Assembly: GCA_022711595.1 (NCBI GenBank)
Contig: JAKLET010000021.1
Location: 1 to 64,000 of the forward strand
DNA length: 64,000 nt
Direction of reading: 5' to 3'
Source: Deltaproteobacteria bacterium
Lineage (GTDB): Bacteria > Desulfobacterota > Syntrophorhabdia > Syntrophorhabdales > Syntrophorhabdaceae
Shown here: in pieces, positions 54,710 through 60,755 of the stretch
How the letters are laid out: each line of letters begins with the position of its first letter
Position numbering within the stretch: the first letter of the stretch is position 1
Notes under the pieces: model-generated
The model's input: only the letters and a program-made list of their open reading frames with translations
The model's database searches: none
What the model was told of the DNA's origin: nothing
Made by a program: the position numbers and the translations under genes

Positions 54710-55171
54710 TTAGTAGGTAATGGTGACAACGAGAGTGTCACTATACGCCCCGGTGGAAATGTCCTGACTTGCGGGTATTCTACCGTAAGCGGTAAGGGTG
54801 ACGGGATTGTTTCTGAAGACAAGGCGGATCACATTCGAGGTTCCGCCGGTGCCGTCTCCCCAGATGTTGGTCCTGGTCGCGTTTGTGTAGAGATTATAGT
54901 TCATGAGGTCCGACCCCGTTGCGAGCTGCATCTGCCTGGGATTGAAGGTACCGGAATATGAACTGCGCCCGATGTCTACGGTGACTACCTGGAGGAAATT
55001 AGTACAGGAAATGGTGATCTGTCCTGTCGTATCGAGTGCTGTTGTTGACAGCGTGTTGTAGGAGCCGAAACTGGCACCTGTTGTAGTGACGGTGCACGCG
55101 CCGTGCGCATTGCCGGCAAGAAAGGCCAAACAGACTGTTAACAAGAGATATTTAAGGACGGTTCTCAACAA
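54710..55171 (-). CDS. Spore-coat-U domain protein, Csu-type pilus tip/minor subunit
   Basis: A 153-residue protein with a signal peptide (LKYLLLTVCLAFLAGNAHG) and one SCPU domain (CTVTTTGASFGSYNTLS ... GRIPASQDISTGAYSDTLVVTITY). The pair of cysteines and the C-terminal beta strand are those completed by donor-strand exchange in Csu pili. CsuE-like tip adhesins have two such domains; this one has one, so a minor pilin is also possible. Last gene of the pilus operon; its start overlaps the usher end by 20 bp. Confidence 0.88.
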   Translation of the reverse strand: MLRTVLKYLLLTVCLAFLAGNAHGACTVTTTGASFGSYNTLSTTALDTTGQITISCTNFLQVVTVDIGRSSYSGTFNPRQMQLATGSDLMNYNLYTNATRTNIWGDGTGGTSNVIRLVFRNNPVTLTAYGRIPASQDISTGAYSDTLVVTITY

Positions 55172-57512
55172 TTACGCTCCCGATATTAACGATCGATTCG
55201 TCAGACCGCGGTATCATTATATCAAATTGACGTATTTTGTCCATGTCCTGCAATGTTCCCTTATAATGTCCGGGCGGTATGTTCTCCAGGTAGAACTCGC
55301 CGCCCCTTGCCGTTACGAAGTCTATCTTTTTCCCGTTGACGGACAGTGTCGCCTCTTTGAGCTCCAGGGGGACGGTCTTTCCATTCTCTTTTGTCTCCAT
55401 GCGTCCGATGAAAGCCTGGACCTTTATGGCATCAAAAGAAAGATAGGTGCCGCCCCTGTATGGCGGGGAGACATTCCTGGTCACTTTCTCAAGGGAGTAT
55501 TCGACAGGTATGTCTTTATCCTCTATAGTGACATAATTGTCTATATAGGAGGTCATATTGGGGATGAAGACCTTTCCCGACCGGTTGGTGTGCCCGATGA
55601 GCTGGTTATTGTGATAGACCGCTACCCCTTTAAGGTCGCCAATCTCCACCACGCCGTAGCTGTCGCTTACGGGCCGGCCGAAGGCCACTGTCCTGCCCAC
55701 GTATGCGATGCCGCCGGAGGCGTTGAGGTTGAATATTTCGTCAGCGGCCCCTTTGTTCGGATAGTTGCCGATGAATTCGGCGCTGTAGATACCGTATCTT
55801 CCGTTGTATTGGAAATAGGGATTGATCGAGTTGATCTCACTCTCTATGGTATTTGACCTCGAGGCGGAGGCGCGGTAACCGTAGCCTTCCCCGGCAGGAG
55901 CGTTCTTTTGGATCTGGAGTGTCTGACTGTCGGTGTCCTTGTCCTTCTGGAGGTTCAGGGAAAGCAGGGTTTCTTTCCATGGATAGTAGAGCAGACCAAG
56001 GGTGAATTTGGTGTTGGAACCGTCATCCTTCGTGTGGCTCACCGACAGGTAGATGTTCGAGTCTTTTGTTATGTTTCGTGAATAATTGAGAGTATAGCTC
56101 TCCCGGTCCTGTCCGGTGTATTTGCTGATCCTGGCGAAGTCGAAGGATATGGAGCCGAGGGTCTTTGTGCCGTAACCAATGCCCGCTCCCAGCTCGTATC
56201 GGGTCTTCTCATCTGTAGACCGTGTTGTTATTGTTGAATAGTCTTCAGTATAACTATTGCAGAGAAGCCTGAAGTTTATCTTGTCCTGCTGGTAAGTATA
56301 GCTCAAGGATCCGGCGAAGCCGCTCGAGTCGCTTTTGCCGAAACTCGCACCCGTCGAGAGGCTCAAGACCCCATAGTTCTTGATAAGGAACGAAACCTGC
56401 GGCCCTATGTTGGCAAGGTCGCTCAGGCCCTCACCCCGAACACCGACGGTGAGCGAATCTGTGATGCCGTAGTTGTGGAAAAAAGAATAGGCGAACCTGC
56501 TGTAGTCGTTGCTTTTGACCCCATAATCCTCACGGAGGAATCCCGCGTTGTAGCTGAACTCGCTGAGCCCTTTTTTCAGGAGGATGTCCGTGGTGTAGAA
56601 AGGGTATCTCAGCGTTTGTTCCCTGCCGAAGGCGTCCTTGATGGTGATTTCCATGTCATGGACCCCGTTGAAGGAGAGAATGTTTTTAAGGTCGAAACGT
56701 CCCGGGGATATCTTGTCCGATTTTACCTGGGTGCCGTCTATGGAAACTTTAACCTCCGATGGCAGCGTGGCGAACCCGGTGTAGTCGACCATGGGCTGCC
56801 TGATGAAATAGGGATCGATGTTGAAGTTCCTTGAAAAGCTTATCCCGCCCATGTTCACAGCACTTCCGAGATATCCTGATGTGGCATAGATGTCGCCGAG
56901 GACTCCGCGGTTGAGGTCGAGCCTCGATTCGTAGGTCATGTTCGTTGAGAGCCGAACGAACCTTTCACTGGTCTCGTCGTTGGTGTACATGGAATCGTTG
57001 AGGAAGAGGACATCTCCTATGCGTGCGCCCAACTGGGTCGTCCCGGTGAAAGACTTGTAGTTGAGAAGCCCATCGCCCGTGTAATTGAGGCCATAGTTGA
57101 AGAAGGCGCTGCTGTCCTTCGGGTAATAGACATCGGTGCGCCTCACAGGCCTGAAATCAACGGCCTGTTTCTGGAGGAGGTTGGGCACCGCGGTGATCTC
57201 AAGCGAGAGCGTCTTTTCATTGAACACGAAGGTGACGCCTTCCATGGAACGCAGAGAGATGTATGGTTTTCCCTGTATTTCGGTTATTTTACCGGCAGGG
57301 TCATCAAAGCCTATTGAGCGCAGGTCTTCCTTGCTCATGAGATAATCCCCGTCGCTGGTGAGGTAGGCGAAATATTCTCCTTTCTCTTCTGAATTGAGGA
57401 TGACCCCGAAGACCACATGTTCCATTGCAAGGCAATCAAAAAAAGGCAGGAGAAGGAGCAGGCAGCCGAGCAGGCAAAGCAGGGTTATCTTGTGTTTGCC
57501 TATCGCCCGCAC
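55152..57512 (-). CDS. Chaperone-usher outer-membrane usher (FimD/CsuD-type)
   Basis: A 786-residue protein with a signal peptide, an N-terminal periplasmic domain and a large beta-barrel (about residues 130-600, with IDPYFIRQPMVDYTGFATLPSEVKVSIDG and FGREQTLRYPFYTTDILLKKG). The C-terminal region includes GRTVAFGRPVSDSYGVVEIGDLKGVAVYHNNQLIGHTNRSGKVFIPNM. It secretes and assembles the SCPU subunits. It uses a GTG start directly after the stop of the MshEN fusion gene. Confidence 0.93.
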   Translation of the reverse strand: MRAIGKHKITLLCLLGCLLLLLPFFDCLAMEHVVFGVILNSEEKGEYFAYLTSDGDYLMSKEDLRSIGFDDPAGKITEIQGKPYISLRSMEGVTFVFNEKTLSLEITAVPNLLQKQAVDFRPVRRTDVYYPKDSSAFFNYGLNYTGDGLLNYKSFTGTTQLGARIGDVLFLNDSMYTNDETSERFVRLSTNMTYESRLDLNRGVLGDIYATSGYLGSAVNMGGISFSRNFNIDPYFIRQPMVDYTGFATLPSEVKVSIDGTQVKSDKISPGRFDLKNILSFNGVHDMEITIKDAFGREQTLRYPFYTTDILLKKGLSEFSYNAGFLREDYGVKSNDYSRFAYSFFHNYGITDSLTVGVRGEGLSDLANIGPQVSFLIKNYGVLSLSTGASFGKSDSSGFAGSLSYTYQQDKINFRLLCNSYTEDYSTITTRSTDEKTRYELGAGIGYGTKTLGSISFDFARISKYTGQDRESYTLNYSRNITKDSNIYLSVSHTKDDGSNTKFTLGLLYYPWKETLLSLNLQKDKDTDSQTLQIQKNAPAGEGYGYRASASRSNTIESEINSINPYFQYNGRYGIYSAEFIGNYPNKGAADEIFNLNASGGIAYVGRTVAFGRPVSDSYGVVEIGDLKGVAVYHNNQLIGHTNRSGKVFIPNMTSYIDNYVTIEDKDIPVEYSLEKVTRNVSPPYRGGTYLSFDAIKVQAFIGRMETKENGKTVPLELKEATLSVNGKKIDFVTARGGEFYLENIPPGHYKGTLQDMDKIRQFDIMIPRSDESIVNIGSVIVENRP

Positions 57513-58601
57513 CTACAAGGACTGTGCGGATATCATCAGGGGCCAGCGGTACGTGCCTGGTTTTACGTTTTCCGAGATGAACATCCGGTAGTTGAGGTCG
57601 ATGGTCATTGGGCCCTTGTGGTGAGGCCTGTGAATGAAGCCGTTTCCGGAGGAGATCTGCAGCTGGCTGCCGAGACAGCCCACGTGGATGGCCTTGAAGG
57701 GGCCCATTTCTCCTTCAAAGTTCAGCATATATCCCGAAATGTTGTTAGAGCGAACCTCTATCTTGGAGCCGTTCTTTATATCCACATAACCTTTCTTGAT
57801 ATCGGCATGCGTGATCACCACTTCCTGGACCTGGCGGATCGTTTTCATTGTTGTGCGGGCAACTACGCTGGCGGTCACCATGAATTTTGAGCTGGCAGAG
57901 CCCGCATGGGCAGTATTGCCGCCGGGGATTGAGGCGAAAGAAAGAATTGCTGTCAGAGCGGCGGTGACGAGCATGTGCTGGAGCTTGAGCCCTTTTGAAA
58001 CTTGCGAGGGTTTGATGTGGCCAGATTCGATGAGTATCTGGCCTATCTTTTTCTTGGAGAGTTTCTGCTTTTTCAGGGCTTCTTCAAGCTGCTGCCTGGT
58101 GATCTGTCCCGTTGAGACGAGCAGTTCGCCAAGGCGCAGAGGGGCTGGTTCGAAGTTCGTGGAGGCTTGTTGATGCTGGAAGGCAAGCATGGCGTCAAGC
58201 TCGCTGGCGGAGATAAGTCCAAGCCTGACCATCGTCCCGCCTATCTTTTCGCCGGCCCTCTTTTGCTCCGCCAGGGCCGTATCGAGCTGCCGTGAGGTAA
58301 TACGCTTCGTTTCGGTGAGCATCTCGCCCAGGACGTGGTGCACGCCGGCTGCGACCTTCATCGCGTCGGGCAGCGACGTAAGATTGTTCTGTATGGAGAG
58401 GGCGGCCTTGAGCTGGGTCTCGTCAAGGGCCCCCATGTCGACGAGTATCCTGCCGAGCTGTTCGTTGGTGGCGTGCTGCCGTTCCAGGGCATTCTTGAGG
58501 GCTGCTTTAGATATGAACCGGCCGTCAACGAGTATCTGGCCGAGAAGGCGCCTGTGCGGGTATTGAAGGTTATCTGCGGTGTTTGCGTTGAGCGAGCTCA
58601 T
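57513..58601 (-). CDS. Triple MshEN (c-di-GMP-binding-type) domain fused to an exported pilus-like domain
   Basis: A 362-residue protein from the ATG at 58601 (a GTG at 58631 lacks a ribosome site). Residues 19-71, 90-142 and 156-208 are three MshEN/GspE_N modules. Each is two 24-residue repeats (LG..L[VT]..G.I.....L..AL..Q) separated by exactly five residues, the published c-di-GMP-binding layout. Module 3 (RLGELLVSTGQITRQQLEEALKKQ) is the most canonical. A hydrophobic segment (210-230) then ends AHA-GS, resembling a signal-peptidase site. The last 129 residues (SKFMVTASVVAR ... VKPGTYRWPLMISAQ) look exported and beta-rich. An internal ATG at residue 210 could allow a second product. It sits between chaperone and usher genes. 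Confidence 0.8.
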   Translation of the reverse strand: MSSLNANTADNLQYPHRRLLGQILVDGRFISKAALKNALERQHATNEQLGRILVDMGALDETQLKAALSIQNNLTSLPDAMKVAAGVHHVLGEMLTETKRITSRQLDTALAEQKRAGEKIGGTMVRLGLISASELDAMLAFQHQQASTNFEPAPLRLGELLVSTGQITRQQLEEALKKQKLSKKKIGQILIESGHIKPSQVSKGLKLQHMLVTAALTAILSFASIPGGNTAHAGSASSKFMVTASVVARTTMKTIRQVQEVVITHADIKKGYVDIKNGSKIEVRSNNISGYMLNFEGEMGPFKAIHVGCLGSQLQISSGNGFIHRPHHKGPMTIDLNYRMFISENVKPGTYRWPLMISAQSL

Positions 58602-58664
58602 TATGTCACCAACCTTGATAAGGTTCAACACTATAACAGATTATCGCGTTTTTTGCCATTATCA

Positions 58665-59465
58665 TTATCTTCCCCGCGGCGAACACATGTCCTTTGAAAA
58701 GTTCAGATCTTTCTGTATGGAATTCCTTGTTGTTTTGAGTGCAACGGACAGTTTGAATATTTTATTACATGCCTGGAGAGGAATATCCGTTTCATAGGTC
58801 CGCGCGATGCCGCTCAAGAGGTACCAGCCCCCGAACTCCCTGGAGAATATCTCGGCACCCTGCTCATTTCTGCCCGTCAGTTTAAGCGAAGTGATAATGA
58901 AATGAGCATTTCCGTCGTTCTTTACCTTTATGGCTGCTTTTCCATTTTGCACAGTAAAGGAATCCAATGCTGCCTTTCCATCATTTTTCAGGGGATTGAT
59001 GAATACCGGGACCCCCACCTTCATGGCTATACGCAGGCCAACCCCTTCGGTTTGGGGTTTTTCAACGGGCAATTCCTCAACGTATATACGGTAAGTGCCC
59101 TCCAGTGCGGAAGGGTGCAATGTGGTTCCGACCCGTATTATCTTTTCCTCTCCTTTTGGGACCTTCATAACCTTGGGGAATACGACTATGTCCGATGTTT
59201 CGTCGTAGATGTCCTTGCCTTCGCTATTCTGCGACCATTTGTAGGCTTTTACCTGCAAGGAGAGGTCGTCGTCACTCACATTCTTGATCATCAGTTTTTC
59301 TGCACGTGTTTTGGCGTTGAAGAATATTCTGATCGGTTGAATATCGAAGCTTGCACTGTCCGCTGGCCCGATGAACAACAAGAGCGGTCCTAAAAATATA
59401 ATGAAAAAAAACAGAATGCGGCGGCCGGGATCAGTAACCGGCCGCCAGCTTAAAACGCTTTTCAA
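58665..59465 (-). CDS. Fimbrial periplasmic chaperone (PapD/CsuC-type)
   Basis: A 266-residue protein with a signal peptide (LFFFIIFLGPLLLFIGPADSA) and two immunoglobulin-like domains. The first contains VKAYKW.Q and VFPKVMKVPKGEEKIIRVGT, and RIYVEELPVE follows. It stabilises SCPU pilins by donor-strand complementation and delivers them to the usher. It uses a TTG start with GGGG upstream, 24 bp after the second pilin gene. Confidence 0.92.
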   Translation of the reverse strand: MKSVLSWRPVTDPGRRILFFFIIFLGPLLLFIGPADSASFDIQPIRIFFNAKTRAEKLMIKNVSDDDLSLQVKAYKWSQNSEGKDIYDETSDIVVFPKVMKVPKGEEKIIRVGTTLHPSALEGTYRIYVEELPVEKPQTEGVGLRIAMKVGVPVFINPLKNDGKAALDSFTVQNGKAAIKVKNDGNAHFIITSLKLTGRNEQGAEIFSREFGGWYLLSGIARTYETDIPLQACNKIFKLSVALKTTRNSIQKDLNFSKDMCSPRGR

Positions 59466-59489: not shown

Positions 59490-59960
59490 CTAATATTCTA
59501 CCGTCGCTGTCAGTGTCTGAAGAAAGGTCCGGCCAGCCGTGACGTCCTGTTCGGCAGGGATCCTGCCGTAAATGTTCTGTGTCTGCGCGGCGTTGCTTGC
59601 TGACGATGTACCTGCGCCTGTCTTAACCAACGGGAAAGAAGCCGTCCTGGCGGCGTCGGTGTATAGTTCAAAATTGAGGGTCTCGCCTGCCGGTGTTGAA
59701 GCCATGGACCGTGCACCGGTTATATAGAGCCAGTAAGTTGTGCCCTTTGTGCATCTGAAGGTCATGTTACCCATCGCATCGGCAGGGGTTGCGTTAGTGG
59801 GATCGTAATCGCCGAATGCAACGTTCGTTGTCCCTGTTATCCTGCAATTACCTGTAGCGGTGGCTGTTACATTGAAGGTTGCTGTCGATGTTGCCGCCAT
59901 AGCCCCTATTGAGAACATCAGGATTGCCATCATCGTAACTGCTGTCAGAAAAAGTTTCAT
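59490..59960 (-). CDS. Spore-coat-U / Csu-type pilin subunit
   Basis: A 156-residue protein with a signal peptide (KLFLTAVTMMAILMFSIGAMAA) and one SCPU domain: CRITGTTNVAFGDYDPTNA ... GRIPAEQDVTAGRTFLQTLTATVEY. It has its own consensus promoter (60011-60039), which suggests it is the major, highly expressed subunit. Its sequence is close to the pilin at 60267-60755. Confidence 0.93.
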   Translation of the reverse strand: MKLFLTAVTMMAILMFSIGAMAATSTATFNVTATATGNCRITGTTNVAFGDYDPTNATPADAMGNMTFRCTKGTTYWLYITGARSMASTPAGETLNFELYTDAARTASFPLVKTGAGTSSASNAAQTQNIYGRIPAEQDVTAGRTFLQTLTATVEY

Positions 59961-60266: not shown

Positions 60267-60755
60267 TTAATACTCCACGACCGCGGTAAGTGTTTTTGAA
60301 AAAACAAGTCCTGATCCGACATTCTGGCCGGCCTCTATCCTGCCGTATATCGTCTGTGTCTGGGGCTCATTGGTGGTCAATGCCGGGAATGTTTTTCCCT
60401 GGGATGCGGCAGGGTAAATGTTTGTATAGGCGCTATCGGTATAGAGCTCAAAGTTGAGTGTTTGCCCGGTTTCCTCGTTTTTCATCGTCCTTGTCCCGTC
60501 TATGTAAAACCCGAATGTGACCCCGGCCACACACCGGTAGGTCATGGTTGTTGACGTATCGGTGTGATTTTTACTCAACGGATTGTAATCGATGAAGCTC
60601 ATGGTTTCTACCTTGTCGATATCGCAGCCCCCTGTCGTGTTTGCGCTGACAGTGAAGCTGTGTGTTGGTTCCGCAACGGCATTGGCGCAAAGAAAAGCAG
60701 ATACCATAATGATAATGACCGATAGGATGATAGGGATGCTGAACAGATGTTTCAT
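60267..60755 (-). CDS. Spore-coat-U / Csu-type pilin subunit
   Basis: A 162-residue protein with a signal peptide (IPIILSVIIIMVSAFLCANAVAE) and one SCPU domain (CDIDKVETMSFIDYNPLSKN ... GRIEAGQNVGSGLVFSKTLTAVVEY). GAGGAGG precedes the ATG. First gene of the operon, separated from the second pilin by 306 bp that hold a hairpin and a promoter. Confidence 0.93.
   Translation of the reverse strand: MKHLFSIPIILSVIIIMVSAFLCANAVAEPTHSFTVSANTTGGCDIDKVETMSFIDYNPLSKNHTDTSTTMTYRCVAGVTFGFYIDGTRTMKNEETGQTLNFELYTDSAYTNIYPAASQGKTFPALTTNEPQTQTIYGRIEAGQNVGSGLVFSKTLTAVVEY

Follow-up and report, generated by a model that had tools for sequence, protein, structure and literature searches.

Chaperone-usher pili are assembled in the periplasm and at the outer membrane, and the c-di-GMP control that we know of for them acts at gene transcription. 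MrkH, by which c-di-GMP raises the type 3 fimbriae, works at that level. LapD and Alg44 are inside-out c-di-GMP effectors, in which a cytosolic receptor acts on a periplasmic output controlling adhesion or matrix export. Csu-type operons, which belong to the archaic class of chaperone-usher systems, encode a two-domain tip adhesin. Pilus terminators are represented by PapH and FimI. For archaic pili, the existence of a PapH analogue is described as yet to be determined (PMC10104325). The MshEN (GSPII-B) domains of the ATPases MshE, PilB and PilF and of NfrB are built on a 53-residue 24-5-24 motif with ligand-contact Leu, Gly and Gln residues. In MshE, the residues of RLG and LxxxLxxQ hold the base of c-di-GMP; mutation of the Gly and Leu residues costs most affinity, and mutation of Arg9, Asp12 or Gln32 changes it up to fivefold (PMC5013675). 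XpsE is a relative that does not bind c-di-GMP and has lost several ligand-contact residues (PMC5013675).

In the window, the whole stretch of 64,000 nucleotides that was analysed, one gene encodes three tandem copies of the same 24-5-24 motif, with its ligand-contact Leu, Gly and Gln, followed by an export signal and a pilin-like domain (Table 1). Unlike MshE, PilB, PilF and NfrB, this fusion protein carries no ATPase or glycosyltransferase, and of its modules only the third has Arg1, the RLG arginine. With the archaic SCPU pilins (Csu, CupE) and the terminators PapH and FimI it has in common the operon setting, an alternating N-terminal extension, a Gly at position -14 and possibly an Ig-like fold, predicted with modest Z scores, whereas it lacks a sequence match to SCPU pilins and SCPU-type cysteines, and has a long, presumably cytosolic N-terminus before the signal segment. 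As in LapD and Alg44, a putative cytosolic c-di-GMP receptor is linked across the membrane to a periplasmic output, but the receptor domain and the output are different ones, the export signal looks cleavable and the likely target is chaperone-usher assembly. c-di-GMP might raise a chaperone-usher pilus here as it does with MrkH, the difference being that the sensor here is built into a protein of the pilus operon. In the open-access papers searched, no description linking MshEN to chaperone-usher pili or to signal peptides was found; a single paper, a Salmonella review, mentions MshEN and chaperone-usher once each.

Translation and the Pfam matches of the neighbours confirmed the coordinates, the order of the parts and the setting between chaperone and usher genes that an earlier note had read from this DNA. 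The archaic-type chaperone and usher genes and three SCPU pilin genes surround the fusion gene on the same strand, and the GTG of the usher directly abuts the fusion gene's stop codon, with zero gap. The pilin encoded after the usher has a single SCPU domain (153 aa), unlike the two-domain tip adhesin of Csu-type operons. Because nine GGDEF genes above the cut-off were found in the source genome, it very probably makes c-di-GMP.

Table 1. Coordinates of the fusion gene, its parts, its operon and the kinase-receiver gene pairs of relatives (positions in the window unless a locus is named)
Feature	Coordinates	Strand	Remarks
Fusion-protein gene	57513..58631	-	372 aa from GTG 58631; full-length conserved family
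Likelier start of fusion gene	ATG at 58601 (57513-58601)	-	362 aa
MshEN module 1	58389..58547	-	LLGQ...ERQ-HATNE-QLGR...SIQ; without Arg1
MshEN module 2	58176..58334	-	VLGE...AEQ-KRAGE-KIGG...AFQ; without Arg1
MshEN module 3	57978..58136	-	adjoins membrane segment; canonical RLG; kept in one-module relatives
Hydrophobic core and c-region	57903..57971	-	core LVTAALTAILSF; c-region ends at signal-peptidase-like AHA-GS
Exported pilin-like domain	57516..57902	-	129 aa; new family without Pfam match
N-terminal extension of exported domain	57861..57902	-	candidate donor strand; near-invariant alternating V9-A11-V13, strand-free in model
Conserved Gly	57555..57557	-	14 residues from C-terminus
Outer-membrane usher	55152..57512	-	usher match 3.3e-30
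PapD-like periplasmic chaperone	58665..59465	-	PapD_N 3.7e-16
SCPU pilin	54710..55171	-	3' of usher, 20-base overlap with usher
SCPU pilin	59490..59960	-	
SCPU pilin	60267..60755	-	
PAS-histidine kinase and REC fusion	L076 7413-10335	+	
PAS-histidine kinase and REC fusion	L075 9762-11880	-	
PAS-histidine kinase and REC fusion	L077 3280-6103	+	

We propose, at slightly better than an even chance, that the fusion protein is a signal-gated pro-pilin or precursor component of an archaic chaperone-usher pilus. The N-terminal 218 residues would stay in the cytoplasm, where the three modules would bind c-di-GMP, and a Sec signal segment would take the 129-residue domain to the periplasm to meet the chaperone and usher encoded by its neighbours. 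Occupancy by c-di-GMP would then control insertion, signal-peptidase cleavage or tethering, and hence whether the subunit joins or terminates the pilus; a subunit still tethered via its N-terminal donor-strand region would not assemble normally. The effect on the pilus could thus be licensing, anchoring or termination. Direct cytoplasmic input to a chaperone-usher pilus, as suggested by the earlier note, is the natural reading, because the modules are MshEN by profile and the fusion is conserved under purifying selection and travels with chaperone-usher genes; it is strengthened by relatives in which a receiver domain replaces MshEN. We read the N-terminal half as the gating input since it is conserved, can be swapped for a different cytosolic input domain and meets the export signal with no linker between them. 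Gating of insertion, cleavage or tethering was preferred in view of a site that seems cleavable and an exported part that resembles a pilus subunit. A point against the proposal is that, with rapid and constitutive cleavage, c-di-GMP would have to act before export. If the proposal is true, a cytosolic receptor of c-di-GMP or of a phospho-signal is covalently joined to an exported pilin-like subunit, giving the cell's internal state a direct and fast route to pilus assembly at the level of one subunit. For the carriers, which are soil and sediment bacteria, the analysis suggests direct control of a pilus for surface attachment by the signal state inside the cell.

The fusion recurs in other genomes. 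The 21 three-module proteins found came from seven family groups within the phylum of the window, among them relatives of the window's family and Geobacter-type bacteria, and from a single genome beyond it (G554), where the gene adjoins a chaperone and an usher gene. A sequence search with the 153-residue tail found it in 11 of 297 genomes of the phylum, and profile searches gave hits in 10 of the 46 genomes searched from the class, in 11 of 141 from the order that includes G025 and in 17 of 395 from the phylum; outside the phylum, the counts were 3/274 in the class of a beta-proteobacterial relative and 1/398 in the phylum of that relative, which is itself included in both. For the contig scans, the exported-domain profile was built from four alignment rows, a ten-row alignment being too diverse. 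Named carriers of the exported-domain family were Deltaproteobacteria UBA4796, Syntrophorhabdus, Geobacter and Geobacteraceae, and a plasmid search gave no match. Among the 28 loci that encode half a module or more, 22 had chaperone and/or usher genes in the stretch retrieved around them, and SCPU pilin genes stood beside three more. In some loci the gene precedes the chaperone gene; in others it sits between the chaperone and usher genes, or follows the last pilin gene in convergent orientation. Since the order varies, the association with chaperone-usher genes does not come down to the inheritance of a single operon arrangement.

The N-terminus varies among the relatives. Besides the three-module proteins (the first module of L058 is degenerate), there are five with a single module, two with just the last half-module and several with nothing but an ordinary signal peptide. 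The one-module forms retain the membrane-proximal module, with RLG or KLG. In G321, G322 and G325, the same export signal and exported domain are headed by a receiver domain (REC) instead of MshEN; REC of L076 matched PF00072 at E 1.8e-20 and retains the Lys, the acidic residue pair and, in FLDIVMPKMDG, the phospho-acceptor Asp. In all three genomes there is an 8-base overlap between the REC-fusion gene and a preceding gene for a PAS-histidine kinase, an apparent two-component system with the exported protein as its output. These REC forms do not adjoin chaperone-usher genes, and G322 and G325 have an additional three-module copy beside usher genes. In the exported-domain tree, the REC forms made one clade (support 96/87; the REC label of L053, a C-terminal fragment, is an assumption), the one-module Geobacter-type forms were nested among the three-module ones, and the window's exported domain was nearest to the REC forms. 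The N-terminus therefore looks like an exchangeable signal input, and the MshEN/REC exchange makes its input role directly testable. Replacement by REC, like the pilin-like character of the exported domain, goes beyond what the earlier note had seen. More broadly, and tentatively at somewhat below even confidence, we suggest a family of chaperone-usher pilus subunits, possibly terminators or anchors in archaic pili, in which a cytosolic domain, either a kinase-driven receiver or MshEN binding c-di-GMP, stands ahead of an internal cleavable export signal and, as an exchangeable input, gates export or release post-translationally.

The exported domain had no match by sequence in Pfam, NCBIfam or the PDB, and its hhalign comparison with SCPU pilins was negative (probability 0.1%). 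AlphaFold models of the domain (11 sequences) reached a pLDDT of 91 and were all-beta, with residues 1-16 strand-free, in agreement with the beta-rich domain expected in the earlier note; a full-length model was poor (pLDDT 67, pTM 0.36), usable for module 3 and the exported domain and unusable for modules 1-2 and the membrane segment. Foldseek returned no match to the exported domain at E ≤ 0.001 (best overall E 6e-3), and its similarity to pilins was not significant there. Structural ranking gave CanA at Z 9.1, FimG at 7.1, PapA and CfaB at 6.5 and FimA at 6.2-6.4, with CBM35 domains at 7.2 in the same range as the pilins, a Z of about 7 lying within the common-fold range. Many of the pilin structural alignments start after the donor strand. 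The Gly at -14 is found in nearly all family members that reach the C-terminus and in the window's SCPU pilin at 59490-59960. The extension, the predicted fold and this Gly agree with a donor-strand pilin, without proof. A terminator or anchor role, for which the fusion protein is a candidate, is an attractive inference because none is known for archaic pili (PMC10104325). In L029 (9893-11039, + strand), the exported domain occurs twice in tandem, both copies having a plain signal peptide, convergent with a chaperone-usher operon.

The single hydrophobic segment with its AHA-GS cleavage-like site was present as the earlier note had described. The final MshEN helix passes straight into it (LKLQ-HM-LVTAALT), and most family members have a small-residue -3/-1 site after the hydrophobic core. 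Compared with shuffled c-regions, the signal-peptidase site was marginal (P 0.046; strict A-x-A, P 0.065). The main rival of the gated-subunit reading is an uncleaved membrane anchor, in which c-di-GMP would shift the oligomeric state of MshEN and the periplasmic domain, not itself part of the pilus, would relay the signal to chaperone or usher, as in LapD or Alg44. The layout of cytosolic sensor, single membrane pass and periplasmic domain fits such a relay, the sensor is exchangeable (MshEN, or REC with its kinase) as in transmembrane signalling proteins, and the sensor half is under purifying selection; moreover, the orthologue L016 has a poor signal-peptidase site. However, the hydrophobic core is short throughout the family, with an uncharged run of 13-19 residues, and ends in a signal-peptide-like c-region. 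Furthermore, the predicted cut falls exactly 129 residues before the C-terminus in seven members of MshEN, REC or half-module kind, at AHA-G in the window, AYA-G in REC, AEA-G, VHA-G and SEA-G in one-module and VEA-G in half-module forms. In relatives without an N-terminal domain, the same segment is an ordinary signal peptide at which the protein starts, and the pilin-like features of the exported domain also speak against a stable anchor, which we consider unlikely but a serious competitor.

The gated-subunit reading also presumes that the modules bind c-di-GMP. The NCBIfam profile NF053729 (MshE-related c-di-GMP motif; cut-off 38 bits) matched three stretches of the fusion protein (E 8.3e-45, 150 bits), and a genome search placed them at 58389-58544, 58176-58331 and 57984-58136, each above the curated cut-off. 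The motif was likewise matched in the relatives. A second profile, made solely from five MshEN stretches that belong to longer proteins encoded elsewhere in the source genome, also found the three modules, at 39-44 bits each. Scored against the consensus RLGxx[LVI][LVI]xxG[LVI][LVI]xxxxLxxxLxxQ, with a 5-residue spacer between the halves, modules 1, 2 and 3 reached 18, 17 and 18.5 out of 22, compared with a top score of 13.5 in 2000 shuffles of the N-terminus. The three modules of 24-5-24 spacing recognised in the earlier note thus held up; of the two profiles that it had named, MshEN was borne out by the NCBIfam motif, and the Pfam type II secretion N-domain was not reported on the fusion protein. 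The PDB matches were PilF, MshE (5HTL) and PilB. Pfam reported DUF4388 and chance-like helical matches instead; those to DUF4388, the fumarase C-terminus and DUF2949 fell on the MshEN helices and were set aside.

Conservation was assessed in 19-20 three-module proteins. Leu2, Gly3, Leu17, Leu21 and Gln24 are near-invariant in all three modules, with Ile/Val at positions 2 and 17 of half-motif 3b, and Gln24 is retained in 16-20 of these proteins in all six half-motifs. The ligand-contact Leu, Gly and Gln positions, Arg1 left aside, had mean entropies of 0.34, 0.25 and 0.56 bits in modules 1-3, compared with 1.60, 1.50 and 1.58 bits at non-contact positions; Gly3 and Gln24 are the more telling, because some contact Leu positions also hold the helix bundle together. 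dN/dS over the modules was 0.04-0.15, as low as over the exported part. In the window's protein, half-motif 3a alone carries the RLG arginine, with L, Q, V, K and K in its place in the remaining five; across the three-module proteins, half-motif 3a has Arg (16/19), 2b and 3b mostly have Lys, and Arg1 is lost in 1a, 1b and 2a. Because Arg1 is retained only in 3a, module 3 is the likeliest c-di-GMP binder, and modules 1 and 2 may bind more weakly.

These losses of Arg1 in modules 1 and 2 also speak for a second rival, in which the modules have lost c-di-GMP binding and act purely as an n-region with a structural or oligomerising role. XpsE provides a known non-binding relative (PMC5013675), and two family members retain only half a module. 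However, Gly3 and Gln24, which have drifted in XpsE, are among the most conserved residues in all three modules, the MshE mutants point to Gly and Leu rather than to Arg9 as the costlier losses, and module 3, the one always retained, is canonical. We therefore regard the loss of binding as improbable.

It is very unlikely that the exported protein arises from an internal start, with the MshEN frame yielding a product of its own or being a leader in decay. At residue 220 of the window's protein, immediately ahead of the hydrophobic core, there is an ATG, and the earlier note had suggested that an internal ATG could release the exported domain. However, only three of the 16 module-bearing proteins checked, the window's included, have an ATG there, no obvious ribosome-binding site was seen upstream, and selection is strong over the whole frame. 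A chance gene join or a single-genome assembly artefact, for which no supporting point was found, can practically be dismissed given the 21 three-module proteins from many independent assemblies and the one-module and REC forms.

Several further relatives were observed. In L081 (9246-9746, - strand) and L086 (9756-10382, + strand), only the last 24-residue half-motif precedes the export signal; such members would have to dimerise to bind c-di-GMP, if they bind it at all. A one-module relative in L080 (2508-6812, - strand) stands in a run with HD-GYP-like and HEAT-repeat proteins, with no chaperone or usher found nearby, and is probably cytosolic since the hydrophobic segment is absent. Three G321 contigs (L055, L056 and L053) all end within one shared exported-domain stretch, LKILHQAR, and near-identical copies were therefore probably collapsed in this assembly. 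In the same genome, a three-module member is immediately preceded by a gene for a GAF-adenylate/guanylate cyclase (L092, 14947-17526, + strand).
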